Below are positions 27,384 to 44,369 of a stretch of DNA of 64,000 nucleotides, piece by piece (the first letter of the stretch is position 1; each line of letters begins with the position of its first letter). The translations under genes were made by a program, and so were the position numbers. The DNA is taken from assembly GCF_001542815.1 (NCBI RefSeq), contig NZ_CP006992.1, positions 912,001 through 976,000 on the forward strand. Direction: 5' to 3'. The notes under the pieces were generated by a model. It searched no databases. It was not told where the DNA came from and saw only the letters and a program-made list of their open reading frames with translations. The stretch is from Methylobacterium sp. AMS5 (GTDB lineage Bacteria; Pseudomonadota; Alphaproteobacteria; Rhizobiales; Beijerinckiaceae).

Positions 27384-27847
27384 TTATGCCGTGTGTGTAA
27401 CGGAGAGGGGGATGTCCAGCGACAGATAGTTTTAGTCCTCGGACGCTAAGTTGGGGCTCAAACGAATCATAGTAGTGGCAGAGCGTGGCTGGGAGTGGCC
27501 CGGGCGACGTTCGCTCGGGCCACTGAGAGGAATGGTTACGTCGAACGGTGATCGGCGGGCGGACTCAAGGGTCCGCCTGCCGCATCGATTCCGATGCAGA
27601 CTTGTATCGCGGACCCGGGGAAGGAACCCCGATGACTTCACCGCCTGTCGGGCGGATCGTTCATACTGCTTGCGGGGGCGCAAAACCCGCAAGGATCACC
27701 CTGTACTGGCCAGCGTTTCGGGCCGCTCTCTTCGGACCTTGGGTCCGAGGTATCGCCGCTGCGGCGCTGTTTTTTCCAGCGCCGCGCTACCGGATCGTAG
27801 CCGGCCCCTGCGCTACCGGGGCAGGCTCTCGCATGACGAGGGCACGT
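27384..27847. other. Non-coding left boundary of the accessory region
   Basis: About 460 bp between nrdJ and the sigma-like gene. It holds a 14-bp hairpin with a 3-nt loop (27494-27524) and a second one, GGCGGGCGGAC pairing with GTCCGCCTGCC, near 27551-27578. No integrase, tRNA or clear att repeat is seen. The core-to-accessory change seems to fall here, and the promoter of the seven-gene cluster is expected at about 27700-27830. Confidence 0.4.
27494..27524 (+). terminator. Strong hairpin downstream of nrdJ
   Basis: AGTGGCCCGGGCGA and TCGCTCGGGCCACT form a 14-bp stem (one G-T pair) closed by a CGT loop. It lies about 110 bp after nrdJ. No T-run follows, so it may be a terminator or another structured element. 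Confidence 0.5.
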
Positions 27848-28504
27848 ATGAACGCCGACATCGGTGTTTCGCAGGAGCGACTGCGTGAGTTTTGGACGGG
27901 GATCGTCGAGCGCGGCGGCCTGGCGGGGCAGGACCCACGGCAGATCGTGGCCGGTTGCCGTCGGCTTCACCCGCGGAGGGATGAGCGCCTCCGCGGCGAC
28001 CTGGTCATCCATCTTGCGGAGCGGGCCGAACGCGTCCTCCGCGCCCTCGCGGGAGCCAGCCTGCGGCACGGCGGCGAAGATCCGGTCGGCGACGTCGTGG
28101 ACGCGATGGTCGAGGCCGTCCTCGACCCGAACTCGGCGGACGGGGCTGGCTTCGAGCAGTCGTTTCGCGGCAAGCTGCGGCACCGCCTTATCGACAAAAT
28201 CCGCCGGGGTAAGGTCCGCCGTGACATCGAACAGCCCGCCGTCTGCGACGCCGAGGGCCAGCCGGTCGAACCCATCGATGGATCGTCGCTCGGGCCGGAG
28301 GACGAGGCCATGATCCAATCGGTCCTCGCTCAGCTGCCGGAGAAGCATCGCTTGGCGTTCAAGCTGTTCCGCCAAGGGTTTGACTTTAGCTCAAAGGCGG
28401 ACAAGAGCATCGCCGGGATGCTGAATATCACGCCGAAGACCGCGAAAGACTGGGTCGATCGCGCGAAGGAGCGCATCGCCCATGAACTCGGTCGTACGCC
28501 ATGA
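27848..28504 (+). CDS. RNA polymerase sigma factor-like protein
   Basis: From the ATG at 27848 this is a 218-residue protein. The middle (FEQSFRGKLRHRLIDKIRRGKVRRDI) resembles the end of sigma-70 region 2. The C-terminal part (MIQSVLAQLPEKHRLAFKLF and then SIAGMLNITPKTAKDWVDRAKERIAHEL) reads as a region 4 helix-turn-helix. It may be a dedicated sigma factor for the gene cluster that follows, with which it overlaps by 4 bp (ATGA) at the next start. The fold call is by eye; a non-sigma HTH protein is possible. An upstream in-frame ATG at 27833 is an alternative. Confidence 0.6.
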   Translation: MNADIGVSQERLREFWTGIVERGGLAGQDPRQIVAGCRRLHPRRDERLRGDLVIHLAERAERVLRALAGASLRHGGEDPVGDVVDAMVEAVLDPNSADGAGFEQSFRGKLRHRLIDKIRRGKVRRDIEQPAVCDAEGQPVEPIDGSSLGPEDEAMIQSVLAQLPEKHRLAFKLFRQGFDFSSKADKSIAGMLNITPKTAKDWVDRAKERIAHELGRTP

Positions 28505-29100
28505 GCGAACGCCCTGAAGACTTGGAGGACGTGCTGATCCGCTTCCACGAAGCGGTTGAGGCGATCACCCCGGAGGTGATCCGAGCCTGGACGACGCGAT
28601 ATCCGCACTTCGCCGACGCGATCCGGGCCGAGGCGCTGGAGATCCTCGATCTCGACCACGGGGGGCGTCCACATGTCGCCGAGCCCGCCGTACGCGACTA
28701 TGCGGACAAGGTCCGCGACGCGGCCCGCCGCGCTGCCGAGCGGGCGGACCCCGTTGATGTGCCGGATCTGCGCGGAGCCCTCAAGCAGCACCACACGGAC
28801 GTGAGGACCTTCGCCGGCACACTTGGCATCGCGCGATCGATCATCGCCGACATCAGCACCGGGCAGATCGTCCCGTCGACGATCACGCCGCGTTTCCGGC
28901 GCTTGGGTGCCGAACGCCTCGGGTGCGCCCGCGCGTGGTTCGAGGCCGTCTTAGAGAACTCTCAGCCCCGCGCCATGACGGCGGCGTTCAAGGCCTCCGA
29001 CCTCCCGACGATGGGGCGGGCGCGGACCTGGGAGGAAGCGATTCGCGCGTCGAGCATGCCAGAGGACCGCAAGGCGTTCTGGCTCGCGGACGAGGCGTAG
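28501..29100 (+). CDS. HTH-like regulatory protein upstream of the ImmA/IrrE fusion
   Basis: This 199-residue protein belongs to no family I can name with certainty. The segment from about 95 to 145 (TDVRTFAGTLGIARSIIADISTG, then STITPRFRRLGAERLG) has the shape of a helix-turn-helix like the XRE-type partners usually found before ImmA/IrrE peptidases. The N-terminal half is acidic and helical. Its start overlaps the sigma-like gene by 4 bp, and the next gene begins 4 bp after its stop, so it belongs to the same transcript. A substrate of the ImmA domain is an attractive guess. Confidence 0.55.
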   Translation: MSERPEDLEDVLIRFHEAVEAITPEVIRAWTTRYPHFADAIRAEALEILDLDHGGRPHVAEPAVRDYADKVRDAARRAAERADPVDVPDLRGALKQHHTDVRTFAGTLGIARSIIADISTGQIVPSTITPRFRRLGAERLGCARAWFEAVLENSQPRAMTAAFKASDLPTMGRARTWEEAIRASSMPEDRKAFWLADEA

Positions 29101-29104
29101 GCGG

Positions 29105-32100
29105 GTGGATGCTTGGCGCGGCATCCGGGTTATCGCCCGGCGCGTGCACGCCGACGCCGCCGCGCGCGCGGTCGATGGGACGGCGTCGGCGCTTGTCGCG
29201 GCGGCGCTCGAACTGGCCGACCTTGAGGTCGATACGCTCGAACCCGGGGCCGTGTACGGCCCCGAGGTGGTCGGCGTCCTTGAGCGGGGCGACGGGTTCG
29301 TCCGCCTCGCCGCTGGCCTCGACGCGGGATGGCGCACCGTCGTCACCGCGCACGAGATCGGGCACTTCCACCTGCACGACGAGCGCCAATCCCTCGTGCG
29401 TACAGCCGAGCCCGGTTTCGGCGGCCAGGCATTCGAGACCGGGGTAGAGCGGGTTGTCGCCTACTCGCCGCGCGAGCGGCGCGAGACACAGGCCGACGTA
29501 TTCGCGCAGGAGTTCCTGCTGCCGGCCGACCTGCTGCGCCAGCGCTTGGTGCGTGATCGCCAGACGCCCTCGCAGATCGCGCAGGAGGTCGGGCTTCCAC
29601 TGCCGTTCGTGACGATGCAGGCGATCCGGGCACTGCTTCTGCCCCCGCTGCCTGAACTGGACGCGATCGAGGAGCCGCCGCCGGCGATCCCGCTTGACCC
29701 GGACCAGCGGGCCGCCGCGGAATGGGACGAGCGGCCGCTCATTCTCGACGCTGGGCCGGGCACCGGTAAGACGCGCACGCTCGTGGGGCGGATCGAGTAC
29801 CTCCTCGGTATCGGCGTTCAGCCGTGGGAGATCCTCGCGCTCACCTTCTCGAACAAGGCGGCCGCGGAGATGCGCGAGCGGGTCGAGCGCCTCGACGCGG
29901 CCGCGCAGATGTGGATCGGCACCTTCCACGCGTTCGGCCTGGAGATCCTGCGCCTGTACGCGGCGCAGGCTGGGCTGCGCGCCGACTTCGACGTCCTCGA
30001 CGAGGCGCATGGGCTTGGCCTGCTCGAAGATATACTGCCGGACCTCAAGCTCCGGCATTTTCAGAATCTGTGGGACCCGACGCTCGAGCTGCGCCCGATC
30101 CTCCGGGCGATCTCGCGCGCGAAGGACGAGATGGTCAGCCCAGCCGCGTACCTTGCGGCGGCCGAGGCGGCGCTGGCCGCGGCCGAGACGCAGGAGGCCG
30201 TCGAGGCGGCCGAGAAGGCGGTCGAGGTCGGCGGCGTCTACACGGCGTACCAAGAGGCGCTCGATGCCAGGGGCGCGGTCGATTTTGGCGACCTCGTTGG
30301 CAAAGCGGCCAGGGTCCTCGCCGACCATGCAGGGGCGAGGGCCACCGTGCGGGACCGCCACCGGTGGATCCTCGTGGACGAGTACCAGGACGTGAACGCG
30401 GCCGGCACCGCGCTGCTGGACCAGATCGCGGTCGACGGGCGGCGCGTCTGGGCCGTGGCCGACCCGCGGCAGTCGATCTACCGGTTCCGCGGCGCGGCCC
30501 CAGCCAACGCGGCCGGCTTCGCGTCCCGCTACCCGAACGGGCAGAGCCGTTCGCTCACCACGAACTACCGCTCGGGCGAGGCGGTGGTGAAGCTGTTCGA
30601 ACACTACGGGCGTGACATCGCCGCGGCCCCCAAGCCACCGGTCGAATGGCATCCCCACCGGGGGGCGGTGGGGTACGTCGACCATCTGCAGGCCGAGGAT
30701 CTGCGCTCGGAAGTCTACGCGGTGCGCGACCAGATCGAACGGTTCAAGGCCGAGGAAATCCCCTACGACCGGCAGGCCATCCTCGCGCGGACCCACCTGT
30801 GCCTCGCCCGGTTCGGCCGGCTGCTCCAGGAGTTCGACGTCCCGATCCTCTACCTCGGCGACCTGTTCGAGCGGCCGGAGATCCGGGACCTGCTCTCCGT
30901 CGTGTCGCTCGGGGCCGACGCGGACGCGGCCGGGCTGATCCGCGTGGCGCAGCTGCCGGAGTATGGTGCGACGCGCGCGGACGCGCTCGTAGCGATCCGG
31001 GAGGCGGACGCCGCGCGCGAGGATATCGTCGCGGTGTGCGCGCGGGCCGAGGCGATCGTGGGGTTCACGGATGCGGGGCGCGCGGGCCTGATTCGGCTGG
31101 CCGGTCAGCTCACCGGGGTCAACCGGGGTACGACGGCCTGGCGTATGCTTGTGGGCTACCTGTTCGAGGGTAGCGGCTATCTCCGGCGCTTCGTCGAAGA
31201 CCCGAGCGTCCGGTCACAGCAGTGCCTCGTCGCGATCTACCAGCTGCTCAAGTTCGCCCGCGAGCACTCCGACGCCACCGGCGGGCGGGGCGGGCGGCGC
31301 GCGTTCTTGGAGCGGATCCGCCGCATCGAGCGCCTCGACGACGATCGCGCGTTCCGCGTCGTGCCGCCGGAGGCCGACGGAATCCCCGCGGTGCGCATGA
31401 TGACCGTGCACGCGGCCAAGGGCTTGGAGTTCGCGGCCGTGCACCTGCCTCAGGTGGCCACGCGCTACGTGCCGGGCAAACGCCAGAGTGTGCGCTGCCC
31501 CGCCCCGCCCGGAATGGAGCATCTCGCGATTGGTCCGACTGACCACGACGCCGAAGAGGAGTGCCTCTTCTTCGTCGCCCTGTCGCGGGCGCGGGACGTC
31601 CTCTCGATTACCAGCGCCAAGCGCTATACGGCGAAGGCGACCTGCAACCCGTCGAAGTACCTTAAGGGCCTCGGGGCGCGGCTGCCGAAGCCCCGGCCCG
31701 CGCCGACGGTCGCCCCGGGGACGCGGCCCGTCGAGGTTGTGGCCGTCGTACCCGTGGACGCCCACGACGGGCGCGACCTGCTGATCTGGACGAAGTGCCC
31801 GGCGCGCTACCGCTACGAGGTGCTGGATGACCTCGGCGACCGGAGCGCAGCCGGAGCCTACCTCGCGTTCCGCCGGTGCGTGCGGGCGACCATCGACTGG
31901 ATCTCCACCCAGCAAGCCGGGGGCGAGGCCGTGGATCCGGCCGCGGCTCGCCAGCGCCTCACCGAGGTCTGGGCCGAGCGCGGGCCCGTCGATCACGGGT
32001 TCGAGCCGGTCTACCGCGCCGCTGCCGAGACCATGGTCGAGAACGCCGTCGCGCTGCTCGACGACGGCGGTCGGGCCGTAGACCGACGGTGGCACGCCGC

Positions 32101-32461
32101 CACCGCAGGCGGCACGATCGGCGTGCGCGCGGACCGCGTCGTGGAACGCCCAGACGGGAGCATCATAGCGCAGGTCTACCGGACGGGACGCAAGTCGAAG
32201 AGCGAGGCGCAGAAAGCGATCTGGGAGCTCCTGGGCGAGGCACTCCGTCAGGCTCACCCCGACCGCACGGTCAGGCTGCAGGCGGTCTACCCGGCCACCC
32301 CCGAGGCGGTGGACATCGACCCGGACCAGGGCGGCGCGGGCCTCGCCGCGTACGCCGATGCCATCGCCGGGATCGAGGCCGGTCGCTTCCCGCCGACCCC
32401 ATCGGGGGACTGTCCCACCTGCCGGTTCTACTTCGTCTGCACCGCCGAAGATTCTTTTTAG
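29105..32461 (+). CDS. ImmA/IrrE peptidase + UvrD helicase + Cas4/AddB-like nuclease fusion
   Basis: This 1118-residue protein starts at a GTG and joins three modules. Residues 1-180 are an ImmA/IrrE zinc peptidase: H83-E84-I-G-H87 and the distal E127 in ETQADVFAQEFLLP. Residues 195-880 are a UvrD/Rep superfamily 1 helicase with Walker A GPGTGKT (K222), motif Ia ALTFSNKAAAEMRERV, DEYQD (425-429), TNYRSGE, VHAAKGLEFAAVH and VALSRARDV. Residues 890-1118 resemble the Cas4/AddB nuclease fold with four cysteines, C898 and C1103, C1106, C1112, able to hold an Fe-S cluster. The expected catalytic D-x-K strand reads QVYRTG, so nuclease activity is doubtful. Confidence 0.85.
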   Translation: MDAWRGIRVIARRVHADAAARAVDGTASALVAAALELADLEVDTLEPGAVYGPEVVGVLERGDGFVRLAAGLDAGWRTVVTAHEIGHFHLHDERQSLVRTAEPGFGGQAFETGVERVVAYSPRERRETQADVFAQEFLLPADLLRQRLVRDRQTPSQIAQEVGLPLPFVTMQAIRALLLPPLPELDAIEEPPPAIPLDPDQRAAAEWDERPLILDAGPGTGKTRTLVGRIEYLLGIGVQPWEILALTFSNKAAAEMRERVERLDAAAQMWIGTFHAFGLEILRLYAAQAGLRADFDVLDEAHGLGLLEDILPDLKLRHFQNLWDPTLELRPILRAISRAKDEMVSPAAYLAAAEAALAAAETQEAVEAAEKAVEVGGVYTAYQEALDARGAVDFGDLVGKAARVLADHAGARATVRDRHRWILVDEYQDVNAAGTALLDQIAVDGRRVWAVADPRQSIYRFRGAAPANAAGFASRYPNGQSRSLTTNYRSGEAVVKLFEHYGRDIAAAPKPPVEWHPHRGAVGYVDHLQAEDLRSEVYAVRDQIERFKAEEIPYDRQAILARTHLCLARFGRLLQEFDVPILYLGDLFERPEIRDLLSVVSLGADADAAGLIRVAQLPEYGATRADALVAIREADAAREDIVAVCARAEAIVGFTDAGRAGLIRLAGQLTGVNRGTTAWRMLVGYLFEGSGYLRRFVEDPSVRSQQCLVAIYQLLKFAREHSDATGGRGGRRAFLERIRRIERLDDDRAFRVVPPEADGIPAVRMMTVHAAKGLEFAAVHLPQVATRYVPGKRQSVRCPAPPGMEHLAIGPTDHDAEEECLFFVALSRARDVLSITSAKRYTAKATCNPSKYLKGLGARLPKPRPAPTVAPGTRPVEVVAVVPVDAHDGRDLLIWTKCPARYRYEVLDDLGDRSAAGAYLAFRRCVRATIDWISTQQAGGEAVDPAAARQRLTEVWAERGPVDHGFEPVYRAAAETMVENAVALLDDGGRAVDRRWHAATAGGTIGVRADRVVERPDGSIIAQVYRTGRKSKSEAQKAIWELLGEALRQAHPDRTVRLQAVYPATPEAVDIDPDQGGAGLAAYADAIAGIEAGRFPPTPSGDCPTCRFYFVCTAEDSF

Positions 32462-32545
32462 CCCGACTACCGAATCGCCGTCCCCGGCCGCGCTGGAGGG
32501 ATCAGAAGGGCGGCCGCGGGGCCGCCTACGGGCGGCGAGAGTGCG

Positions 32546-33268
32546 ATGCACGGACACGGAGAGGACCGCGTGGCGGTCCAGATCGGCGACGAGAACCTGA
32601 ACTTCACCGAGGTCCACCTCACGGACCCGGTACCCACGGGGCGGCAGATCATCAAGGCGGCAGGCAAGCACCCCGTCGACGACTACGCCGCCCTCGCCCT
32701 GTTGCCGGACAACGCGCTGGAGCCGCTGCGGCTCGACGAGACATTCGATCTGCGCCACCACGGTGTCGAGCGGTTCCTGGTTTGCCGCTGCGACACCCTC
32801 TACCGCTTCTTCATCGACGGGCAGGACCAAGAATGGCCGGTCCGCCGGATCACGGGCGTCGTCCTGAAGAAGCTCGCCGGCGTCGATCCCGCCGCCTTCG
32901 ATGTGTACCTCGTCCTGCCCGGGGCCGACGACGTCCGCGTGGCCGATCACGAGATGTTCGATCTCGCGCGGGAGGGGGTTGAGCACTTTCAAACGGTCAA
33001 GCGGCGGGCCCCCGCCGCCCGCGACATCACCCTCAAGGTGATCGTCAACGGTACCGAGATCGCGCTCAAGGTCCGCCCGGACACCCCGCTCGCGCAGGTC
33101 CGCACCGAGGCGCTGCGGAAGTCCGAGAACGTCGGGCGGCCCGAGGACGAGTGGCAGCTGAAGGACGAGCACGGCACCCCGTACGACCTGACGCAGACCG
33201 TCGCTGGCGTCGGGCTGCACGATGGCGACCTCGTGTGGTTGAGCCTCAAGGCGGGGGTCGCCGGGTGA
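32546..33268 (+). CDS. Tandem ubiquitin-like protein (multiubiquitin type)
   Basis: This 240-residue protein seems to contain three ubiquitin-like units. Units 1 (about 8-83) and 2 (about 86-148) resemble the prokaryotic multiubiquitin domain (GRQIIKAAGKHPVDDYAALAL; VVLKKLAGVDPAAFDVYLVL). Unit 3 (about 160-240) resembles the DUF2604-like beta-grasp (LKVIVNGTEIALKVRPDTPL, ending VWLSLKAGVAG). The C-terminus ends in glycine, as needed for activation by an E1. Its stop overlaps the next start (GTGA). It is the predicted modifier of the conjugation system. Start codons upstream in frame were not seen. Confidence 0.8.
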   Translation: MHGHGEDRVAVQIGDENLNFTEVHLTDPVPTGRQIIKAAGKHPVDDYAALALLPDNALEPLRLDETFDLRHHGVERFLVCRCDTLYRFFIDGQDQEWPVRRITGVVLKKLAGVDPAAFDVYLVLPGADDVRVADHEMFDLAREGVEHFQTVKRRAPAARDITLKVIVNGTEIALKVRPDTPLAQVRTEALRKSENVGRPEDEWQLKDEHGTPYDLTQTVAGVGLHDGDLVWLSLKAGVAG

Positions 33269-33885
33269 GCGGCCCGCAGACCGTCGACCCCGCGGTCTCC
33301 CGCGCGAAGTTCGCGCGGGAGGTCACCGCCTATCGGGCCCTGGAGGGGACCTACCGCAAGCGCGGCCAGATCCTGCTCGACGCCGAGTTCCCCGAGGTGT
33401 GCGTGATGTTCGCGGCCCCCAAGCTGCGCCCGTCGCCCATCGTCGCCTGCGTGGTCGTCGATTTCACCGATTACGACGTCCAGCCGCTTTCGGTGCGCTT
33501 CGTCGACCCTTTCACCCGCGCGCCGATCAAGGCGAGCGAGCTCAACATCAACATGCTGCGCCGGCCACCGATGCCGCCGGGGATGCCAAAGGAGATGTAC
33601 CTCCAGCTCATCCAGATGGGGCAGATGCCGGCAACGGACTTGATGCAGTTCAACTCGCCCGACGACCCGCCATTCCTGTGCCTGCCCCGCGTCCGGGAAT
33701 ACCACGACAACCCCGCGCACACAGGTGACGCATGGCTTCTGCACCGCCGCTCTGGCGAAGGCTCCTTGGCCTTCATCCTCGACACGATCTGGAGCCACGG
33801 GGTCAACCCGATCGAGAACTACCAGCTGGTCGCGCAGATGCCGGCGATCGGCATGGGGTTGAATCTCGCGCGCGTCCCGGAGTGA
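33265..33885 (+). CDS. CEHH-type putative metal-binding protein (possible E2-like partner)
   Basis: This 206-residue protein starts at a GTG that overlaps the Ubl stop. The invariant-looking cluster C139, E145, H147, H152 in CLPRVREYHDNPAHTGDAW fits the predicted metal-binding CEHH family known from bacterial ubiquitin-like operons. No gene in the cluster has a clear E2 fold with a conserved catalytic cysteine in an HPN context, so this protein may take the E2-like position, with C139 as the candidate residue. That is inference. The next gene again starts at an overlapping GTGA. Confidence 0.65.
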   Translation: MSGPQTVDPAVSRAKFAREVTAYRALEGTYRKRGQILLDAEFPEVCVMFAAPKLRPSPIVACVVVDFTDYDVQPLSVRFVDPFTRAPIKASELNINMLRRPPMPPGMPKEMYLQLIQMGQMPATDLMQFNSPDDPPFLCLPRVREYHDNPAHTGDAWLLHRRSGEGSLAFILDTIWSHGVNPIENYQLVAQMPAIGMGLNLARVPE

Positions 33886-34370
33886 GCGGGCTCGCGGCAG
33901 TGCGGGCGGTCTCGCTTCCCCAGGCGTGCGCGGACGCAGCCCAGGAGCACATGCGCTCGGTCGGCCGCGCCGGCCATGAAGGGCTGGCGCTCTGGGTCGG
34001 CCGTCAGGACGGTGAGCGGTTCGCGGTCGAGCAGACCTGGGTCCCCGCCCAGCGCCACGTCCGCACCGACGACGGCGTCTGCGTCTGCATCGGCCCGGAC
34101 GAACTCCACCGCATCAACGTCCGGCTTCACCGCGAAAAGCTCGTGCTCCTGGGGCAGGTCCACAGCCACCCGGGCCGGGCCTACCACTCGGACACCGACG
34201 ACGCCTTCGCGATCGCCACTGCGGTCGGCAGCCTGTCGCTCGTCGTGCCCGACTACGCGGTCCGCCCGTTCGCGCTCCCCGACATCGCCGCCTACCGGCT
34301 CGACGCCCGCGCCCATTGGGCGCGGGTCCCCGCGGGCGCGCTGGCGCAGCTCATCACCATCACGGGTTGA
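33882..34370 (+). CDS. JAB/JAMM-family metallopeptidase (predicted Ubl protease)
   Basis: The 162-residue protein carries the JAMM zinc motif: E33, then H94-S-H96, S103 and D106 in VHSHPGRAYHSDTDDAF. Such prokaryotic JAB peptidases mature ubiquitin-like proteins or remove them from targets. Its GTG start overlaps the preceding stop, and the E1-like gene starts 2 bp after its own stop. The first 20 residues are weakly conserved. It should process the C-terminus of the Ubl encoded two genes upstream. Confidence 0.85.
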   Translation: MSGLAAVRAVSLPQACADAAQEHMRSVGRAGHEGLALWVGRQDGERFAVEQTWVPAQRHVRTDDGVCVCIGPDELHRINVRLHREKLVLLGQVHSHPGRAYHSDTDDAFAIATAVGSLSLVVPDYAVRPFALPDIAAYRLDARAHWARVPAGALAQLITITG

Positions 34371-34372
34371 TC

Positions 34373-35902
34373 ATGGCCCTCGCGAACTTCTTCGACCGCG
34401 CCGCCACCGCCGCTTCGCAGGTTCTGGCGGGCTTCGGCACGGCCGCCTTCTCGGAGCGGCTTCGGGCGCAGGTCGTCGGCCTCGCCTTCGACGGGGAGGC
34501 CGCGCATTCAGCGGAAGGCGCGGCCCTGCTCGACCTCACGGTCCGCTTGCTCGCCCGCCTGTACCCGACCCTCGCGATCCACGCCCTCGACGGCCCAGCC
34601 GCAGAACGTGCCGTCGAGCTGTGCGGCTTGGCCCGAGCGATCAACCCAGCCATCGATCTGGGGGGCGACGTCGGACGGGCGAGCGTCACCGTCTGCGTCG
34701 GCCGCACCGCGCTGGCCATCCCAGGCCAGGCGCTGTTTGCTGGGTCGGACGGCTGGATCGCGCGTTTCTCCCCGACGGCCCCGGTCGGGTGCGGGCGGAG
34801 CGTCAACCCGTTCGGTGCGGGGGCCGCGGCCTGCATCGCGGCCGCGAACGTGTTTCGGGCCGTGTTCGCCGACCAGATCCCGGGCGGGGGCCTTGACGGA
34901 GAGGTCGCCCTCGACCTTCGCAGCTACCGCCCGGCCGCACCGGGGGCCGCGGGCGGCGAGGTTGGCCCCGTCGACCTGGGTGAGGCGCATCTCGTCGGCT
35001 TCGGGGCCATCGGCAACGGCGCAGTTTGGGCGCTCGCCCGCCTGCCCGCCCTGGCCGGAACGCTGCACCTCGTCGACCACGAGGCCGTCGACCTGTCGAA
35101 TCTGCAGCGCTATGCGATGGCGGCGCAGGTCGACGTCGATCGTGCGAAGGTCGAGGTTGCTGCCCCCCTGCTGGCCGTGACCGGGCTGCGCGTTGCACGC
35201 CACCGCGCGACGTGGGCCGAGTATCTCGCCGCGCGGGACGACTGGCGGCTGGATCGGGTTGCCGTCGCCCTGGACACGGCGCGCGACCGCGTCGCGGTCC
35301 AGGGTGCCCTCCCCCGATGGACCGTCAACGCCTGGACCCAGGAGGGCGACCTCGGTGTCTCACGGCACGGGTTCGCGGACGGCAAGCCCTGCCTCGCCTG
35401 CCTCTATCTCCCCGCCGGCGTGGTGAAGGACGAGGACGATCGCATCGCTGAGGAACTGGGTATGCCCGAGGCGCAGCCGGAGGTGCGGCGGATGCTGCAG
35501 ACTTCGGAACCGGTCCCCGCCGCGTTCGTCGAGCGGATCGCCGCCGCGCTGGGCGTTCCAGCCGAGCCCCTGCGACCCTTCGCGGGGCAGCCCCTGCGGA
35601 GCTTTTATCAGCACGCCGTGTGCGGAGGCATCGTCTTCCAGCTGACCGATGGCGGACAGCCGGTCGGAGCCACCGTCCCGATGGCGTTTCAGTCGGCACT
35701 CGCCGGCGTTATGCTTGCCGCCGACCTCGTGAGGCACGCCCGGGGGGAACCGGACGCGCCGACGGCCGTCATACGCATCAACTTGCTGCGACCGCTCGGC
35801 ACCCACCTCGCCGATCCCCACGCGCGCGACACCACGGGCCGCTGCATCTGCAGGGACCGCGACTTTCAGGCCGCCTACCGACACAAGTACACTGCCGCAT
35901 AG
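34373..35902 (+). CDS. ThiF/E1-like ubiquitin-activating enzyme
   Basis: This 509-residue protein has an N-terminal region (1-195) without recognised motifs, perhaps an inactive or accessory domain as in other bacterial E1s. A ThiF/E1 adenylation domain follows, from about 200. Its nucleotide site is VGFGAIGNGAVWAL (G209, G211, G214) with the acidic D235 and the D-L-S-N-L-Q-R segment (240-246) that positions ATP. Cysteines C340 and C343, C417, and the C-I-C pair at 491-493 could be catalytic or zinc-binding. It is the last gene of the cluster and would adenylate the Ubl C-terminus. Confidence 0.85.
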   Translation: MALANFFDRAATAASQVLAGFGTAAFSERLRAQVVGLAFDGEAAHSAEGAALLDLTVRLLARLYPTLAIHALDGPAAERAVELCGLARAINPAIDLGGDVGRASVTVCVGRTALAIPGQALFAGSDGWIARFSPTAPVGCGRSVNPFGAGAAACIAAANVFRAVFADQIPGGGLDGEVALDLRSYRPAAPGAAGGEVGPVDLGEAHLVGFGAIGNGAVWALARLPALAGTLHLVDHEAVDLSNLQRYAMAAQVDVDRAKVEVAAPLLAVTGLRVARHRATWAEYLAARDDWRLDRVAVALDTARDRVAVQGALPRWTVNAWTQEGDLGVSRHGFADGKPCLACLYLPAGVVKDEDDRIAEELGMPEAQPEVRRMLQTSEPVPAAFVERIAAALGVPAEPLRPFAGQPLRSFYQHAVCGGIVFQLTDGGQPVGATVPMAFQSALAGVMLAADLVRHARGEPDAPTAVIRINLLRPLGTHLADPHARDTTGRCICRDRDFQAAYRHKYTAA

Positions 35903-35979
35903 ACAGGAAATCCCCACACGCACCTACCGCGGCGCACGCGGAGGTGCATAGATAGCCTGCATACGAGGACTGATGATAT

Positions 35980-36603
35980 ATGGCATTAAGAAGCATCGCC
36001 GACGTATTTATCATTGAGTCCTTAGACTTCGCCGATGAAAAATCTCGCAAGGAAGGCGAAATAATTTTCCGCGCGCTTCAGATGTCCGGAAAATCCCCAA
36101 TCTATCATTACGTTAGAACGCGCCAGGAACTTCAGCATTTCATAGGTGAATTCCGCGCTAGCGATTATCGATACCTTCACATGTCTTGCCACGGAAACGT
36201 TGATACGTTCGGCCTGACGCTCGAAGCCCTAACGGGCGAGGATCTCGCAGACCTATTCGGCAACGCTTTGGACAGGAGAAGACTTTTCCTTTCGACGTGC
36301 TTGGCGGCTAATGCCGACTTCGCCAGCAAGATTTTCCAACGTTCATCGTGTTTTTCTGTCGCCGGACCGATCGGTGAGATAGCATTCGACGACTCGGCAG
36401 TCCTATGGACGGCGTTCTATCATTTGATGTTTAAGGAGAGGCCCGATGCTATGAACCATAAGAGGCTAATGCTCAACCTTGGTAAGTCCGCCCTTGTTTT
36501 TGATCAGCAAATGAATCTATTCTTGGCGGAAAAGAATGGTCGGTCCCGGCACATCGTTCTGCCGCCGCGTAGCAAGAAGCTCGAGGAGAGCGACATGCCA
36601 TAG
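35980..36603 (+). CDS. CHAT/caspase-like putative cysteine peptidase
   Basis: This 207-residue protein has noticeably lower G+C than its neighbours. The segment YRYLHMSCHGNVDTFGLTLE has the shape of the CHAT-domain strand ending in the catalytic histidine (H71), and RRLFLSTCLAAN places a cysteine (C107) at the end of the next core strand. That His-Cys pair is the hallmark of caspase-like peptidases, often effectors in bacterial immunity. The gene starts 77 bp after the E1 gene on the same strand, so it could be an effector of that system or a separate unit. No sensor domain is fused. Confidence 0.55.
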   Translation: MALRSIADVFIIESLDFADEKSRKEGEIIFRALQMSGKSPIYHYVRTRQELQHFIGEFRASDYRYLHMSCHGNVDTFGLTLEALTGEDLADLFGNALDRRRLFLSTCLAANADFASKIFQRSSCFSVAGPIGEIAFDDSAVLWTAFYHLMFKERPDAMNHKRLMLNLGKSALVFDQQMNLFLAEKNGRSRHIVLPPRSKKLEESDMP

Positions 36604-37157
36604 GCGTTGGGCGAGACGGTCCGCAGCGCCTGCGCATGCTGCAGTGCGCGTACGGGATCCTGCCGGCTGACTGTGCCTACGAGGAGCCGATCCACCTCGC
36701 AGCCAACATAAATGTCGTCCCGGCCTGCGCATCGGCACGAAGTGCCTAGGCGCAGAGGGTCTGGCAGAGGCCGGCGTCACTCTTGACGACGAGCGGGTTA
36801 AACACGGAGGACTTGGTTCGGCGCGGCTAGAAGTGAGGATGGAACGTCATGATTATTTGGGAGTGCTAGACAAAATCGGCAGATATCCTTAGTGCCCGCC
36901 TCGAAACCTTCCTATCAGACAAGCCGCTGCGCCGCCGACGCCCGGTGCAAGCCCCGTACAGGGTCGAGGATCGAAGCGCCGTCGGCGGCCGGACCCTTAG
37001 GCCGCAAGGCCAGCGCATCAAGCCCGGCTGTCACTGTGCCTCGTGGACTTGAGGATGAAGGCTGCGGTGGGCCAGCACGCTTCGCCCCTTCACCACGCCC
37101 TATGGCGGATGAGCCCAATCGGAACGATATCACCATAGACTTCGACCGGAGATGGGC
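36604..37157. other. Non-coding stretch between the CHAT-like gene and TIR operon
   Basis: About 550 bp with no frame that looks like a gene. Short frames are present but lack a domain or ribosome binding site. The promoter of the TIR operon should lie in the last 150 bp. I see no CRISPR, repeat array or IS end here. Confidence 0.4.
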
Positions 37158-37646
37158 ATGGCCAGACGGGTCTTCTTCAGCTTCCACTACGACCGCGATG
37201 TCCGACGGATCGTCCAGGTCCGTAACTCGTGGCTCATCCGTGCCAAGGGCGAGGCACAGCCGTTCTACGATGCCGCCGCCTTCGAGGAGGCAAAGCGGCG
37301 TGCGGGCGGCATCGAGAAGTGGATCGAGGACCAACTGAAGGGCACTTCCGTGACGGCGGTCCTGTTCGGCGCACAGACCTCCGAGCGCGAATGGGTTCGC
37401 CACGAGATCAAGCGCAGCCACGAACTCGGGAAGGGCCTCCTTGCCATCGACATCCACAAGGTGAAGGATCCGCAGCTCGGCGCGGACATCCAGGGCAGAA
37501 ACCCGCTGTCGTGCTGGTCGGCCAAGAGCGGCGGGCAGACGATCCCGTTCAGCAACCTTTACCGGACGTACGATTGGGTCGCCGACGATGGGTACAACAA
37601 CATGTCCGCGTGGATCGAGGCGGCTGCCAAGGCGGCAGGGCGTTGA
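37158..37646 (+). CDS. TIR-like domain protein, DUF1863 (ThsB-like) type
   Basis: This 162-residue protein is a stand-alone TIR-like domain of the DUF1863 (MTH538) group, the group that includes the Thoeris signal-producing enzyme ThsB. Typical pieces are RRVFFSFHYDRDVRRIVQVRNSW, IEDQLKGTSVTAVLFGAQTSER and WVRHEIKRSHELGKGLLAIDIH. E83 in RHEI is the candidate catalytic residue. A GGAG lies 6 bp upstream of the ATG at 37158; the ATG at 37152 is the alternative. The second TIR gene begins 9 bp after the stop. Confidence 0.8.
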   Translation: MARRVFFSFHYDRDVRRIVQVRNSWLIRAKGEAQPFYDAAAFEEAKRRAGGIEKWIEDQLKGTSVTAVLFGAQTSEREWVRHEIKRSHELGKGLLAIDIHKVKDPQLGADIQGRNPLSCWSAKSGGQTIPFSNLYRTYDWVADDGYNNMSAWIEAAAKAAGR

Positions 37647-37655
37647 GGCCAGTCG

Positions 37656-38816
37656 ATGAGCCTGTACGAGCTGGCGATTCTGGGGTGCGCGACGCCGGAC
37701 GAGAGGACGATTTTGACCGCGACGCTGCGCGGCATGATCGAGGACTTCGGTCTCGCGATCGACGCCGACGTGCGCGTCCTCGATGGCGCAAACGTCGCGG
37801 GCCGCGACAAGCGCGCGGCCTTTGCGGCGGCCTATTTCGCTGGCGACGATCCCTCCGACGTGGAGGCCGCGCGCGCGGTGGTCCGATCCAGCGCGCCGGT
37901 GATCCCAACGGTGGGACCGGCCGGCGACTTCGTACGGCAGGTCCCCGACTTTCTGCAATCCGCGAACGGGTTGAGGCGTCGCGCCGACGATGGCGCGTTC
38001 GTCGAGCTGGCGTCGGCGATGCTCGAATGCGTGGGGCTGCTGCGGAAGCAGCGCCGGGTGTTCGTCAGCTATCGCCGCACCGAGTCGCGCGCGGCCGCCC
38101 TGCAACTGCACGACCTCCTCACCGCCCGGGGGTTCGACGTGTTCCTCGACACGCACGACATCCGCCCCGGGGACCCGTTCCAGGACGTCCTGTGGCAGCG
38201 CTTAGTCGACGCCGACGTCATGGTGATGCTCGACACGCCGACCTACTTCGAGAGCCGCTGGACGCGGCATGAGATCGGCCGCGCCCGCGCCAAGGACATT
38301 CACGTGCTGCGGGTCATATGGCCCGAGCACGTGCCCAGCCGGCTCACCGATCTGGCTGAGACCATCTACCTCGAACCCGCCGAGCTCGAGGGTACGGACG
38401 GGCCGGTGGTAAACGCGGTCGCCGAGAACATAGTAGGCCGCGTCGAGCGCTTGCGCAGCCGGGCCATCGCGGCCCGGTACATGGCGATCACCGGCAAACT
38501 GCGTGCCGACGTCGAGAAGTTCGGCGGGTCGGTGGAGGGCGTCGGAGCTCATCGTGCCGTCGCCATACGGCTTCTCGACGACCGGAAGATCTGGGCTTAC
38601 CCTGTCGTCGGCGTGCCCAACGCCGAGATCCTCAACGACATCGCCGAGAAGGCCCGCCGCGCCGACCAGGGCGAGGTCCCGGTGCTGGTCTACGACCACG
38701 TCGGCATCCGCGACGCCTGGAACGCGCACTTGGTCTGGCTGGGCGAACACATCCGGGCCGTGCGTTCCATAAAGGTCGCGGAAGCCGGTTGGGCGCTCGC
38801 CGCGTGGGAGGGATGA
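37656..38816 (+). CDS. TIR-domain protein with extra N- and C-terminal domains
   Basis: A 386-residue protein with a central TIR domain (about 132-250): RRVFVSYRRTESRAAALQLH, LLTARGFDVFLDTHDIRPGD and DADVMVMLDTPTYFESRWTRHEI, with E206 as the candidate catalytic glutamate. Residues 1-125 and 255-386 are alpha/beta-like but match no family I recognise; the C-terminal part contains VLVYDHVGIRDAWNAHLVWLGEHI. Its stop overlaps the SLOG gene start (ATGA). It is a different TIR subtype from the upstream gene. Confidence 0.8.
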   Translation: MSLYELAILGCATPDERTILTATLRGMIEDFGLAIDADVRVLDGANVAGRDKRAAFAAAYFAGDDPSDVEAARAVVRSSAPVIPTVGPAGDFVRQVPDFLQSANGLRRRADDGAFVELASAMLECVGLLRKQRRVFVSYRRTESRAAALQLHDLLTARGFDVFLDTHDIRPGDPFQDVLWQRLVDADVMVMLDTPTYFESRWTRHEIGRARAKDIHVLRVIWPEHVPSRLTDLAETIYLEPAELEGTDGPVVNAVAENIVGRVERLRSRAIAARYMAITGKLRADVEKFGGSVEGVGAHRAVAIRLLDDRKIWAYPVVGVPNAEILNDIAEKARRADQGEVPVLVYDHVGIRDAWNAHLVWLGEHIRAVRSIKVAEAGWALAAWEG

Positions 38817-39475
38817 ACATGGCCGACGCCGTCTTCCTCTCCGCGGGCGTCCCTGATCCCCGGCGGGGTCCGCAGTACGCGGCGACCGCCGACACGGTGG
38901 CGATTACCGCGGCAGTGTCGGCCCTCGTCCACGTGACGCTTGGCCGCCGCATCCTCGTTTGGGGCGGTCACCCGGCGATCACACCAATGGTCTGGACGAT
39001 CGCGCAGGACGTCGGCGTCGACTACGGGCGCTGGGTCCGCCTGTATCAATCACGGCATTTCGCGGACGAGTTCCCCGAGGACAACGAGCGGTTCCAGAAC
39101 GTCACCTTCACGGACGACGTCTCCGGCGATCGCGAGAAGAGCCTCTTGGTGATGCGCGAGCGCATGTTCTCAGACCACGGCTTCAAAGCCGCCGTGTTCA
39201 TCGGCGGGATGGGCGGCATAACGCAGGAGTACGAGATGTTCCGCCGCCTGCAGCCGGACGCCGCGGTCATCCCGGTTGTTTCCACCGGGGGCGCGACCCT
39301 CGACGTGGCGGCGCGAGCCGGGCCGCTCGACCCCGACCTAGCCGACGACCTCGACTACGTGGCGCTGATGCACCGCCACCTCGCCGTGTCCGTGCGGGAG
39401 GAGCGGTTCAAGGACCCGGACGACCAGCCAGCGTCGATCCAGGATCGATTCTGGCGGCCCGGTAAGAAGGCCTAA
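38813..39475 (+). CDS. Stand-alone SLOG-domain protein
   Basis: This 220-residue protein has a SLOG-type Rossmannoid fold: VFLSAGVPDPRRG at the N-terminus, ILVWGGHPAITPMVWTIA (48-64) and VFIGGMGGITQEYEMFRR (128-145), the last being the glycine-rich loop with a conserved glutamate. SLOG domains bind nucleotide-derived ligands; in Thoeris ThsA one senses the TIR-made signal. Here no NADase or other effector domain is fused. The start overlaps the preceding TIR gene by 4 bp, and the next TIR gene begins 6 bp downstream. Confidence 0.8.
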   Translation: MNMADAVFLSAGVPDPRRGPQYAATADTVAITAAVSALVHVTLGRRILVWGGHPAITPMVWTIAQDVGVDYGRWVRLYQSRHFADEFPEDNERFQNVTFTDDVSGDREKSLLVMRERMFSDHGFKAAVFIGGMGGITQEYEMFRRLQPDAAVIPVVSTGGATLDVAARAGPLDPDLADDLDYVALMHRHLAVSVREERFKDPDDQPASIQDRFWRPGKKA

Positions 39476-39481
39476 CCGCGC

Positions 39482-40102
39482 ATGGCATTCTTGCGCGAAG
39501 CTGATGTCCGCGCGCGAGCGCGGCGGAGGGCCGGAGCAGCGGGTATCAGCGTCTCGGAGGCTTTGGGCCGGGTCGCCCGACGTCGTCGCGCCCGATACGA
39601 TATCTTCCTCTCTCAGACGATCCGCGACGCCGAGATCGTCCTCGGCGTCTACGACATCCTTACCAACGCCGGGTATGAGGTGTTCTGCGATTGGATCGAA
39701 GCGCCGGAGACTGATCGGAGCCAAGTCACACCTGCGAACGCCGAATTTGTCCGTGCGACCATGGACATGAGCGATACGCTGCTGTTCCTTGACACCGAAA
39801 ACGCGGCCCAATCGCTATGGATGTGTTGGGAATTAGGTTGGTTCGACGGGCGTAAAGGTCTTGTATCTGTCCTTCCAGTCCTGCCCGACGGCGAGCAATA
39901 CTACCGCAGCCGCGAGTTCCTCGGCCTCTACCCGTATGTCGAGCTGGACGAGGAGGGACGGCTCAAGGTCGTCAGGCCAGTAGTTACGAGTCCGAGCGGC
40001 GTAACAATGTTTGAAGCGCCGAACTCACGAACGTTCGAATCTTGGCGGACCGACCCGCGCGATTTCATGAGGCCGCGCGTGATAGGCGGATTAGGTCGGT
40101 AG
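39482..40102 (+). CDS. TIR-like domain protein (third TIR of the operon)
   Basis: This 206-residue protein has a basic N-terminal 38 residues and then a TIR-like domain: RYDIFLSQTIRDAEIVLGVY, LTNAGYEVFCDWIEAPETDR, then DMSDTLLFLDTENAAQSLWMCWELGWFDG with E117 as the candidate catalytic glutamate. The C-terminal part (about 130-206) contains a short region common to DUF-type TIR proteins. It is unlike the other two TIR proteins in sequence. An AAGAAGG precedes the start by about 8 bp. It is the last gene of the operon. Confidence 0.75.
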   Translation: MAFLREADVRARARRRAGAAGISVSEALGRVARRRRARYDIFLSQTIRDAEIVLGVYDILTNAGYEVFCDWIEAPETDRSQVTPANAEFVRATMDMSDTLLFLDTENAAQSLWMCWELGWFDGRKGLVSVLPVLPDGEQYYRSREFLGLYPYVELDEEGRLKVVRPVVTSPSGVTMFEAPNSRTFESWRTDPRDFMRPRVIGGLGR

Positions 40103-41353: not shown

Positions 41354-43207
41354 TCACGCCGCTCCGGCCGGCGGTGCGGGCGGGGCCTGCCAGAGCTGCG
41401 CAGCGACCTTGAATAAAGACGTCCCGCGGGCCGTAATCGTGTCTTCATTCCAATCGGCGTGGTCGTGCAGCTCGCGGTTGAGAACGAGCGCCGATTGCGC
41501 CCGAATGGCCGGCATCTTCACGGAGAAAGCTCCGTTGGAGACAGAGGCGTTCAGCGCATGGGTGAGCAGCGTCAGATTACCCAGCGTGTGCACTTTGCCC
41601 TCTCGCGCAGCCTGTCGCGAGAGGTACTCGGCGCTCGGTGCGGCCTCGTCTTCGTGACCGAACCCAGAGATCGGCCAATGCGTCCGCCACTTCTGGGGCA
41701 TGATGTGCTCGAGGGTGAGATCCGTCTTGATCTCGACGATCTCCGAGGCATTCGCCCGCTTGCGTTCCTCGAGCCGCTCGAACAGGTGACGCAGCCTGCC
41801 TTGCCGCGCCGGCTTGTACTGGGTGCGGGAGCGCCAGGCATCGCCGAACTCGGCATCATCAGGCCAGCGAACCGTATCGAGGGTCCCCGCGGCCAGACCG
41901 TCTCGCAAGGTGCCTAGCAGAGCTTGGCGTTCCACCGACCGCAGGCGCGAGATGAGGTCGGTGAAGACCTTGTTGTAGCCCGCCGTCGTCAGCCCGCAGA
42001 TGTCACGGCGGACGATGAACGACTCGATGATGGCGAGTGCCGATCCCAGTTCGGCAGGGTCGTCGATCGTCGTGCCGAGGTAGAGGACCAGCGGTGTCGC
42101 CGTCGAGACGTCGAAGGCGCGCGAGAACCGGCCGAAGCGTCCGAGCACATCGTCCTTGTCGCCCCCGGACAGCCGGCGGAATACGGTCGCGCTCGCGGCG
42201 ATCGCCCGCAGTTCCGCCTCGACGTCGCCACCGAATGGCTTCCCGTCGACGATCCAGCGCCGGTAGCTGTCGAACAGCGTCTCTACGGACACCAGTTCGG
42301 CCTTCATCATCGCCAGGTGATCGGACAGGAGCCAGTCCAGCCGCGGACGGGTCAGGCGGCCGCGGGTGTCACCCTCCCGCCAGAACCAGGCGTCGAGGGG
42401 CAGCCAGTACCCCCGGTACAGCTGATCGATGGCGAGATCGCCCGCGACCATTCCCAAGCCGGTCGCGCGCTGGAAGATGAAGTTGCGCATCAGGTCGCCG
42501 GCGGTGAGATCGACACCGCGGCTATTCAGGGTCTCGAAGATCGTCTGCGGGTCGTCGCCGCCCTCCAACTCGATCGAGACGACCGCCAAGCCCGTCTTCA
42601 GCGCCTCGAACAGCTTCTCCAGCTTGAATGGATCGTAGGCCCCATCCGGGCAGATGTGCGCTTCGATGCGCTGCGCGAAGTAGGCGTGCGCGGCCGTCGC
42701 CGGGCGGACGACCCCGTCGCCGTCGGCGTCGATCCCGTCGAGCCCGGGCACCACAGCGGTCGGATCAACGACCCGCGTGAACGCGCGGCGATCAGCGAGC
42801 GACGGCCAGAGCTTGAACCGCTCGATCGCAGGATCCTCCATCACGCCGTCGTTAATGAGGTGCTTGGCGCTCTCGGCCGCGTATTCCGGGGAGTAGTTGG
42901 CGGCGACGTCGCGGAGCGCGACCATCAGGAGCTGGAATGTCGTCAGCCTCTGTTGGCCGTCGATAACCTCGAACGCCTGAACCTGTTTGCCGAAGGTCTT
43001 CACCTGCGCGATCACGATCGCGCCCATGAAATGCGGTGCTACCGCCCCGCCGCCGACTTCCAGCCGGCCTGCCTCGCGAGCGATATCCTGCCACAAGAGC
43101 TCAAGCTGCGGCGTGACCTTCCAGGCGTACTGCCGTTGATAGAGCGGGATCAGATAGCGACGCTTACCGTCGAACAGGTCGATGATCGTCCGTGTGAACG
43201 GCTTCAT
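41354..43207 (-). CDS. DUF262/DUF1524 (GmrSD-like) restriction-type protein
   Basis: The ATG at 43207 gives 617 residues. The N-terminal DUF262 domain has IPLYQRQYAWK and IDGQQRLTTFQLLM, then ETLNSRGVDLTAGDLMRNF, a ParB/Srx-like NTPase with DGQQR. The C-terminal DUF1524 domain has the HNH-type nuclease signature LTLEHIMPQKW (E499-H500 region) and HTLGNLTLLTHALN. GmrS/GmrD-type proteins of this layout are type IV restriction enzymes that cut modified phage DNA; many homologues are untested. It is followed by a hypothetical gene, and a patatin gene lies upstream in the opposite direction. Confidence 0.88.
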   Translation of the reverse strand: MKPFTRTIIDLFDGKRRYLIPLYQRQYAWKVTPQLELLWQDIAREAGRLEVGGGAVAPHFMGAIVIAQVKTFGKQVQAFEVIDGQQRLTTFQLLMVALRDVAANYSPEYAAESAKHLINDGVMEDPAIERFKLWPSLADRRAFTRVVDPTAVVPGLDGIDADGDGVVRPATAAHAYFAQRIEAHICPDGAYDPFKLEKLFEALKTGLAVVSIELEGGDDPQTIFETLNSRGVDLTAGDLMRNFIFQRATGLGMVAGDLAIDQLYRGYWLPLDAWFWREGDTRGRLTRPRLDWLLSDHLAMMKAELVSVETLFDSYRRWIVDGKPFGGDVEAELRAIAASATVFRRLSGGDKDDVLGRFGRFSRAFDVSTATPLVLYLGTTIDDPAELGSALAIIESFIVRRDICGLTTAGYNKVFTDLISRLRSVERQALLGTLRDGLAAGTLDTVRWPDDAEFGDAWRSRTQYKPARQGRLRHLFERLEERKRANASEIVEIKTDLTLEHIMPQKWRTHWPISGFGHEDEAAPSAEYLSRQAAREGKVHTLGNLTLLTHALNASVSNGAFSVKMPAIRAQSALVLNRELHDHADWNEDTITARGTSLFKVAAQLWQAPPAPPAGAA

Positions 43208-43451
43208 GGAATCTCCCGTGCAGCCGCTATCGTTCTTTGCCGACTCGGTGATGGTTCGGTCTGCGGGTTGGGACGATAGACAGAAGCGACCCCGTCGGCC
43301 ACGCCGTCCTCGAACTCGGTGAACGATACGATCCCGGTGTTGCACACGCGCAATTGCTTGATGGCGACCGGAGCATGAAACTTCAGGTCGCCATCAGACG
43401 CATGCGCCGTCCTCATGCGGTGGCACTCTGCTACGCCACATATAGGGCCAA
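43208..43451. other. Divergent promoter region, DUF262/patatin
   Basis: This 244-bp gap lies between two divergent genes and becomes AT-richer on the right. No domain-bearing frame is seen. It should carry both promoters. Confidence 0.35.
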
Positions 43452-44369
43452 ATGCGAATGAATAACTTTGACAAAGATGTAGATAATATCTCACTTTGCT
43501 TCTCTGGTGGCGGGTTGAGAGCGACTTTCTTCCATCTTGGTACATTTCTGGCCTTGAAAGATGCGGGGTATACAAAGAATATCAATGAAATCTATAGCGT
43601 TTCTGGCGGAAGTATTGCTGCAGCGCACATCGTTTTAAATTGGGATAAATATAATGATACAAATCAAACGGAATTAGAGGCGACAAAAGAACTCATTGGA
43701 GCCGGATCTCTAGACATACGGGGAAGAGTTTTCCGACGTGAATTGATATTGCTTATGAGCCTTCCATTTTTCAATCAATTTTTGTCATTTTTCGGATTTC
43801 CCATTATATGGCCGAGGACCAAGATAGCAATCGATCAATATAAGAATTTATTTGAAAGGAAAAAACTAAATGATCTTTCTTCAGATGGGACGCCGAAGTT
43901 ATATTTGTTGGCCACTAGCCTCACTAAAGGGAAAGTTGCGGCATTTGGCCGGGAAGGACTATCCATTGGAAGCGAAAAGTACGAGGGAGAAGAAATTCAA
44001 ATTGCGCTAGCTGTTGCAGCTTCCAGTGCATTCCCGCCACTATTTCCTCCTATCACGCTTCCAGCAAAAATGTTTGGCGCGAGGCGAGATAGATTCCCAG
44101 TGGACGAAGAGCTTCTCAGCGACGGGGGTGTATACGACAATTTGGGATGTTACATCCCTATGAATCGAGGATCTTCGGATTGGATTGTATTAAGCGATGC
44201 AAGCGCGAGTATTGATAATATATACAACAAAAGCTTCAATTCCCTCGTATCAAGAGCTGTCAGGTCGACTAATATTGTTATGGAGCGACTGAGCGAGGAG
44301 ACTCTGAAGGCGCTCCATGAGCGTGGAAAGTTCGCCCATGTTCGAATTGGGAATTTGAGGTTCGCGTAA
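43452..44369 (+). CDS. Patatin-like phospholipase (ends at in-frame TAA)
   Basis: The AT-rich frame encodes about 305 residues of a patatin-like acyl hydrolase. The oxyanion-hole glycines are in SGGGLRATFFHLG, the nucleophile elbow is SVSGGS (S51; the usual first Gly is Ser), and the catalytic aspartate is in LLSDGGVYDNLG. These enzymes can degrade membrane phospholipids and serve as effectors in several phage-defence systems. A TAA at 44367-44369 stops translation in the middle of an open frame that continues. A start at 43458 is also possible. Confidence 0.8.
   Translation: MRMNNFDKDVDNISLCFSGGGLRATFFHLGTFLALKDAGYTKNINEIYSVSGGSIAAAHIVLNWDKYNDTNQTELEATKELIGAGSLDIRGRVFRRELILLMSLPFFNQFLSFFGFPIIWPRTKIAIDQYKNLFERKKLNDLSSDGTPKLYLLATSLTKGKVAAFGREGLSIGSEKYEGEEIQIALAVAASSAFPPLFPPITLPAKMFGARRDRFPVDEELLSDGGVYDNLGCYIPMNRGSSDWIVLSDASASIDNIYNKSFNSLVSRAVRSTNIVMERLSEETLKALHERGKFAHVRIGNLRFA

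Follow-up and report, generated by a model that had tools for sequence, protein, structure and literature searches.

How a complete ubiquitin-like conjugation operon might be switched on is the question raised by a 64,000-nt stretch of Methylobacterium sp. AMS5 (assembly GCF_001542815.1, contig NZ_CP006992.1, positions 912,001 to 976,000 of the forward strand; hereafter the window, numbered from its first letter). The window carries a bilABCD operon at 32546-35902 and, just ahead of it on the same strand, genes for an extracytoplasmic function (ECF)-like sigma factor, an Xre-like helix-turn-helix (HTH) protein and a fusion of an M78 protease, a UvrD helicase and a degenerate nuclease, which we call the trio. 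A first-pass annotation had pointed out the UvrD fusion in front of the operon; the fusion is present and worthy of note, but the annotation had overlooked that it is one of three genes in a module that includes a sigma factor and has its own promoter-like element. What appears to be new here is the trio and the paired element ahead of operons for ubiquitin-like proteins (Ubls), Bil itself being already known. We think it reasonably probable that the seven genes form one unit, in which the trio is a DNA-triggered protease/sigma controller of bilABCD acting through two elements, P1 and P2. This analysis documents the genes present and their conserved linkage, protease and motor motifs that are intact, a nuclease motif that is degenerate and a pairing of promoter-like elements; from these we infer that the unit senses DNA, that its protease and sigma factor are active, and that it conjugates and defends.

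The trio ahead of bilA

The three genes lie on the + strand and overlap or stand at most 4 nt apart. The first (27848..28504) encodes 218 residues from the ATG at 27848, with an alternative ATG at 27833, and family models, a family profile and Foldseek mark its product as a putative ECF-like sigma factor. The NCBIfam sigma70-ECF model matched it at 6.4e-07 (29.1 bits, below the curated cut-off of 42.9), its homologues are 218 residues long with several annotated as sigma factors, and the family profile aligned with RpoE (PDB 2q1z) over positions 55-251, covering regions 2 to 4 (2.2e-05). In Foldseek searches with models of the sigma and HTH proteins no match was found at E <=0.001; the top rows for the sigma model were ECF sigma factors (best E 1.7e-3). 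The second gene (28501..29100, +) encodes the Xre-like HTH protein, presumably a repressor or an anti-sigma factor, which has a conserved C-terminal tail. Pfam was weak or uninformative for it, and its profile reached only 0.031 in the PDB. A plasmid search with the window protein gave no match at 1e-5, and a search of 297 genomes (the order sample, see below) hit eight: the window's own, four trio genomes and three with weak matches (6.6e-4 to 9.6e-4).

The third gene (29105..32461, +) encodes an 1118-residue fusion of an M78 (ImmA/IrrE) protease, a UvrD helicase and a degenerate PD-(D/E)XK domain, assigned by Pfam (Peptidase_M78 1.4e-10, UvrD-helicase 2e-61, PDDEXK_1 1.2e-06) and by motif conservation over 38 fusions. 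The HExxH motif of the M78 part reads HEIGH at residues 83-87. Among the 38 fusions, the M78 motif and Walker A are each retained in 37 and DExQD in all 38, and the acidic residue of the nuclease [D/E]xK motif is retained in 0/38. As judged from these motifs, the protease and the motor appear intact and the iron-sulfur (Fe-S) nuclease domain appears degenerate. A search with residues 1-195 of the fusion returned 135 proteins, most of them ~1,100 residues long among the best 120 of the 135.

The same motifs bear on a different role for this protein. The fusion might chiefly be an effector or a conjugation partner, whose helicase acts on phage DNA, which is itself conjugated, or which recruits the Ubl to proteins on DNA, with the sigma and HTH genes merely regulating the unit; we consider this unlikely. 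The intact motor motifs would suit an effector, and UvrD-type helicases act in other defence systems, models of Gabija GajB matching the helicase domain of the fusion at 8.8e-65. However, the nuclease motif is degenerate in every one of the fusions, the fused M78 family and the adjoining HTH gene suggest regulation, and 64 of 66 related bil loci (see below) manage without the fusion. Compared with GajB, the fusion adds M78 and Fe-S nuclease-like domains. Gabija itself was rejected, as no GajA match was found among ten proteins scanned from 27548-38813 (for the fusion, among the best 25 of 53 matches). We also rejected the trio as a phage gene set, since the M78 part had no match at 1e-3 in 50,697 phage records; in viral contigs there were eight helicase matches (24-37% identity in the best segment), none beginning before residue 190, so that they are without the M78 part.

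Linkage of the trio to Ubl-E1 operons

We searched genomes with an alignment of ten M78 parts in three overlapping draws of 297 (the order sample), 385 and 398 genomes. The matches split into 17 distinct strong ones (E <1e-38) and 17 distinct weak ones to generic M78 proteins, and the analysis covered the neighbourhoods of all 34. The strong matches lie in open frames of >1,100 aa, except for one broken frame in genome G284, and all 17 of these fusions are preceded by sigma and HTH genes and followed by Ubl and E1 genes, on one strand. Of the weak generic loci, which served as a control, 15/17 were without any such gene in the fetched stretch; the exceptions were L148, with a Ubl-E2-JAB-E1 operon nearby, and L159, with only a weak E1 match (8.8e-07). 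The L148 operon (genome G310) has a stand-alone M78 gene nearby on the opposite strand, which may be a CapP-type counterpart of the fused protease.

The M78 part also matched 90 plasmid records, 45 of them from Acinetobacter, and we examined the loci of 20 records, including two of the 45. Their hosts are Alpha-, Beta- and Gammaproteobacteria and the cyanobacterium Leptolyngbya. Ubl and E1 genes follow downstream on the same strand in 17/20; in the other three, the Robbsia locus has Ubl and E1 divergently upstream, the Aquincola locus has a Ubl match only, and the P. koreensis locus has an IS66-type gene after the fusion. By tblastn the sigma protein was missed in 2/20 plasmid loci (L096, L167) and the HTH protein in 1/20 (L096), where hypothetical genes are annotated. 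Two further gene sets were seen around these units: AbiEii-type and DUF6088 genes directly ahead of the trio in L169, L170, L173 and L176 (rhizobial and Agrobacterium plasmids), and an SbcD-like exonuclease gene followed by an SbcC/AAA-type gene behind the Ubl operon in L081, L095, L096 and L161.

The type of conjugation operon behind the trio varies. On the R. phaseoli plasmid, the operon matches all four PADLOC Bil models with an E2 of the DUF7665 family, and in the order sample all three genomes above the DUF7665 cut-off are trio loci, a fourth match lying below the cut-off. This DUF7665-E2 subtype of Bil has the same four roles and order as the window operon and a different E2 family; the window proteins gave weak or absent matches to the PADLOC Bil models. 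Further cargo consists of a multi-Ubl with DUF6791-ThiF and DUF6527 genes, of a Ubl with a JAB-ThiF fusion and a DUF6527-like gene, or of three genes, for a multi-Ubl, a small protein and ThiF; in one of the two loci of this last kind, an SbcD-like gene comes next. Overall, the cargo is Bil of two subtypes or DUF6527/Bub-like. In a tree of 38 fusion proteins (L081, with a broken helicase frame, was omitted, and L096 and L167 sit on long branches with unsure placement), six cargo labels, which we set by hand on the basis of gene order and tblastn classes, require 7 changes (minimum 5; mean after shuffling 19.2). A JAB-E1/DUF6527 locus is the fully supported partner of the window's group. The trio thus stays constant while the conjugation operon changes type, and the reverse link, from bil to the trio, is loose.

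A promoter-like element before the sigma and Ubl genes

Between the fusion and the Ubl gene there are 84 bp in the window and, with the starts that we chose, 69-119 bp in the other loci (L081 aside). In these gaps we spotted by eye an element of the form T(A/T)CCG(A/G), 16-17 nt, and CGATT, CGACT or CGCT. In the window, pattern scans of the loci and of the whole genome place the candidate promoter P1 before the sigma gene (27788..27814, +; TACCGG, 17 nt, CGCT) and P2 before bilA (32468..32494, +; TACCGA, 17 nt, CGCT). Counted in the same gaps from which it had been derived, the strict pattern is present in 26/37, against 0.14 expected from its rate elsewhere in these loci, and a looser pattern in 33/37 (1.0 expected). 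The strict pattern also precedes the sigma gene in 12/39 loci, against 1.0 expected. In all 11 loci that carry both elements, the window included, the second box is the identical variant at the two sites (4.5 on average after shuffling, with 11 reached in 5 of 20,000 shuffles). The window's genome has three copies of TACCGRATC-14 nt-CGCT, namely those at 27788-27814 and 32468-32494 and a third, located elsewhere on the opposite strand within repetitive sequence, and a reversed control pattern has zero occurrences there. The trio resembles a conserved control unit and may switch on the Ubl operons that it accompanies via its own promoter.

A further copy of the element lies within the sigma coding sequence in 15/18 loci with a DUF6527 match and in two others. 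Codon use would give 0.19 such sites where 17/18 were seen, in a test on 19 loci of which 17 had been picked for having the site and one, L174, is without the protein motif.

The linkage and the elements together also bear on whether the trio could be an unrelated neighbour, brought there by chance in a defence island. Other defence-type genes do lie downstream, but the same arrangement in 17/17 genome loci, the downstream Ubl-E1 pairs on the plasmids, the short gap and the matched promoter-like elements leave this reading very improbable.

The Ubl leader may hold a second layer of control. The last 58 nt before the Ubl start gave a mean z of -2.8 against dinucleotide shuffles, with 28/37 loci below -1.5, compared with a mean z of -0.14 and 7/74 below -1.5 for control coding sequence. 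The leader stems, found in the window and 36 counterparts, vary in sequence but keep a similar position, and often pair with the ribosome-binding region; in many loci it is the AAGG-type region ahead of the start that is paired in the outer stem. In the window, folding of this leader (32488-32545) places an 8-bp inverted repeat at 32508..32527 (+), and the fold itself is not significant (z -0.59). An RNA lock and a DNA operator would both fit the structure.

The bil operon and its relatives

The four consecutive + strand genes at 32546-35902 are intact, overlap or abut, and match solved Bil proteins role by role, four for four, in a PDB sequence search (E of 1.5e-62 or better). The first-pass annotation had read them as a complete ubiquitin-like conjugation set, and Pfam and PDB agree, each of the five families that it had named for checking (Multi_ubiq, DUF2604, Metal_CEHH, Prok-JAB and ThiF) matching its respective protein. 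First, bilA (32546..33268, +) encodes a 240-residue Ubl that matches M. brachiatum Ubl-BilA (PDB 8u38, 1.5e-129). The three domains proposed for it are borne out by Multi_ubiq in two stretches (9.4e-34) and DUF2604 (2.2e-23), the same three-domain form as in the solved M. brachiatum BilA, and the terminal glycine by its C-terminus, AGVAG. Second, bilB (33265..33885, +; 206 aa) encodes a Metal_CEHH protein (1.2e-80) whose C139, E145, H147 and H152 form the Cys-Glu-His-His (CEHH) motif in the alignment with 8tyz chain C (9.7e-64). Third, bilC (33882..34370, +; 162 aa) encodes a Prok-JAB (5.1e-07) peptidase aligned with 8tyx chain B (1.5e-62), with the JAMM residues H94, H96 and D106 where they had been reported and Glu33 (E33) in addition. 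Fourth, bilD (34373..35902, +; 509 aa) encodes an E1 (Prok-E2_C 1.1e-33, ThiF 1.8e-10) with the GFGAIG motif at 209, as had been noted, and Cys417, and it matches 8tyz chain A over its full length, inactive and active adenylation halves included (2.2e-183). Both bilB and bilC start with GTG and overlap the stop of the preceding gene.

The annotation had seen no obvious E2, wrongly: that role belongs to the CEHH protein (BilB), which matches 8tyz chain C and whose CEHH residues are part of the BilB active site according to the available portion of a review (PMC11354881), where BilD is also said to use Cys417. By sequence, the operon is a complete Bil set of a known anti-phage kind, of the CEHH-E2 subtype (PDB 8tyx, 8tyz, 8u38), with the same four genes, order and catalytic residues. 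The order A-B-C-D, once taken for a less studied layout, is the known bil order. This copy presumably conjugates its Ubl and acts in defence. Window BilA stops at the glycine, as do 2/66 relatives, and 64/66 carry one extra residue past GVAG (pattern search; 33245-33268); it may need no trimming by BilC.

The 66 relatives come from a scan of genome contigs, and their titles assign them to Alphaproteobacteria except for one titled only 'Bacterium' (L052). The conserved neighbourhood that the annotation had suggested looking for is there: the same four genes stand in the same order in 65/66 loci, and the L073 contig begins 392 bases before bilB. This recurrence of gene content and order excludes a chance origin of the four-gene set. 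The trio precedes bil in two of the 66, both Methylobacterium (M. brachiatum and M. phyllostachyos), and the window resembles these two and differs from the other 64. Among loci with the DUF7665-type Bil, the trio precedes the operon on the R. phaseoli plasmid and in three order-sample genomes.

Weighing control by the trio

Several observations weigh against control of bilABCD by the trio. The 64 loci noted above have no trio match, four of which (L022, L061, L063 and L073) are poorly judged as they hold <2 kb before bilB, and of the four Metal_CEHH genomes in the order sample only the window's own carries the fusion. Since most CEHH-type bil loci are without the trio, bil can work without it, and we rejected the trio as essential for CEHH-type Bil. 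The strict element is missing from 11/37 gaps and from the sequence upstream of sigma in 27/39 loci. In addition, the sigma-upstream sequences had also been seen beforehand and the loci are related; because of this kinship and of the derivation of the pattern from the gaps that were counted, the element figures support the reading rather than prove it. Lastly, the sigma protein is divergent, falling under its family cut-off, and its profile matches NarL/FixJ-type HTH domains in the PDB equally well, via region 4 alone.

This last point leads to a reading in which the putative sigma factor would not be a polymerase sigma subunit and would instead activate transcription as a DNA-binding protein with a sigma-4/LuxR-like HTH domain, the paired element being its operator. 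The fit of the profile to FixJ/NarL HTH domains, at least as good as that to sigma factors, speaks for such an activator, as do the plasmid annotations, which vary between sigma factor, response regulator and LuxR family. Nevertheless, the alignment with RpoE extends through regions 2 to 4, the top Foldseek rows are ECF sigma factors, and the element has a sigma-like two-box spacing of 16-17 nt. We regard the activator as improbable, somewhat more so than the fusion acting as an effector, and retain the reading of the trio as a protease/sigma controller.

Neighbouring defence-type genes

Just after bilD, a 207-aa open reading frame at 35980-36603 (+) has a weak CHAT/caspase-like match (Pfam CHAT 0.029) and resembles a His/Cys protease; it was rejected as part of bil, with no homologue at 1e-4 in the 66 related loci. 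Further downstream lie a TIR/SLOG cluster at 37152-40102 (+), with a ThsB-type TIR, ThcB4 (Thoeris type III, NCBIfam 9.3e-140), SLOG cluster3 (1.2e-80) and a further weak TIR, and, at 41354-44369, a GmrSD-type restriction gene (-) and a patatin-like gene (+). Two Rhizobium loci (L070 8844-9442, L071 3618-4216) carry homologues of the window's ThcB4 and SLOG genes upstream of bilA, in divergent orientation, so that Bil and the TIR/SLOG system meet elsewhere too.

Discussion

In the scheme that we favor, the M78-UvrD-dead-nuclease fusion would load onto abnormal DNA, such as single strands or ends from phage replication or damage, and engagement of DNA by the helicase would activate the fused M78 protease. 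The M78 domain would then cleave the Xre-like HTH protein, acting either as a repressor at P1/P2 or as an anti-sigma factor, and the freed ECF-like sigma factor would drive transcription at two matched promoters, P1 ahead of its own gene and P2 ahead of bilA. BilD (E1) would activate BilA, BilB (E2) would pass it to targets, and BilC would trim or remove it.

To our knowledge, the PprI/IrrE-DdrO pair of Deinococcus does not stand beside a Ubl operon and has neither a helicase fusion nor a sigma factor. It shares with the trio an M78 protease and an Xre-like HTH protein, and a single-stranded DNA (ssDNA) signal is established there, as far as the accessible part of PMC10904395 goes. The route proposed here from DNA through the protease to HTH cleavage rests on analogy with PprI/DdrO and CapP/CapH, in both of which an ssDNA-activated M78 protease cleaves an HTH repressor (PMC10904395 and PMC13373217, each in its accessible part). 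CapH and CapP likewise combine an M78 protease with an adjacent small Xre-like HTH protein ahead of an immune operon (same part of PMC13373217), but they are two genes with a stand-alone protease, whereas in the trio the protease forms one protein with UvrD and a dead nuclease domain, and a sigma-like gene and two matched elements are added. CapK and CapS are also found upstream of Bub, Bil and other immune operons and respond to DNA damage, according to that partial text; they are a kinase and a STAS-wHTH repressor, without protease, helicase or sigma factor, unlike the trio.

More broadly, the trio could be a new class of immune controller dedicated to several types of Ubl system in Alpha-, Beta- and Gammaproteobacteria and a cyanobacterium, in which a helicase-coupled protease would read the state of DNA, cleave a repressor-like protein and release a private sigma factor with two matched promoters; loci of the DUF6527 type would have an additional promoter inside the sigma gene, and a structured leader able to pair with the ribosome-binding region would serve as a second lock. 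We hold this at a moderate probability, about evenly balanced, because the trio is loosely tied to CEHH-type bil and because the element counts lack independence. No description of a controller that joins a helicase-fused protease to a sigma factor of its own and is tied to several types of Ubl operon was found in the literature searched, the primary Bil and Bub papers lying outside it, so that a prior mention is possible; the main text of Iyer et al. 2006 (PMC1779556) does not contain 'helicase', 'sigma factor' or 'UvrD'. In the available text of PMC13373217, 219/544 Bub operons come with CapW or CapH and CapP, and a phage-defence role of Bub operons is given as not demonstrated. Some of these CapW- or CapH/CapP-bearing operons could be the trio described here.

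How bacterial ubiquitin-like pathways are activated is a question of current interest, and it becomes directly testable should the trio prove to be a private sigma system. The trio and its promoter-like element also provide a sequence handle for finding more Ubl operons.

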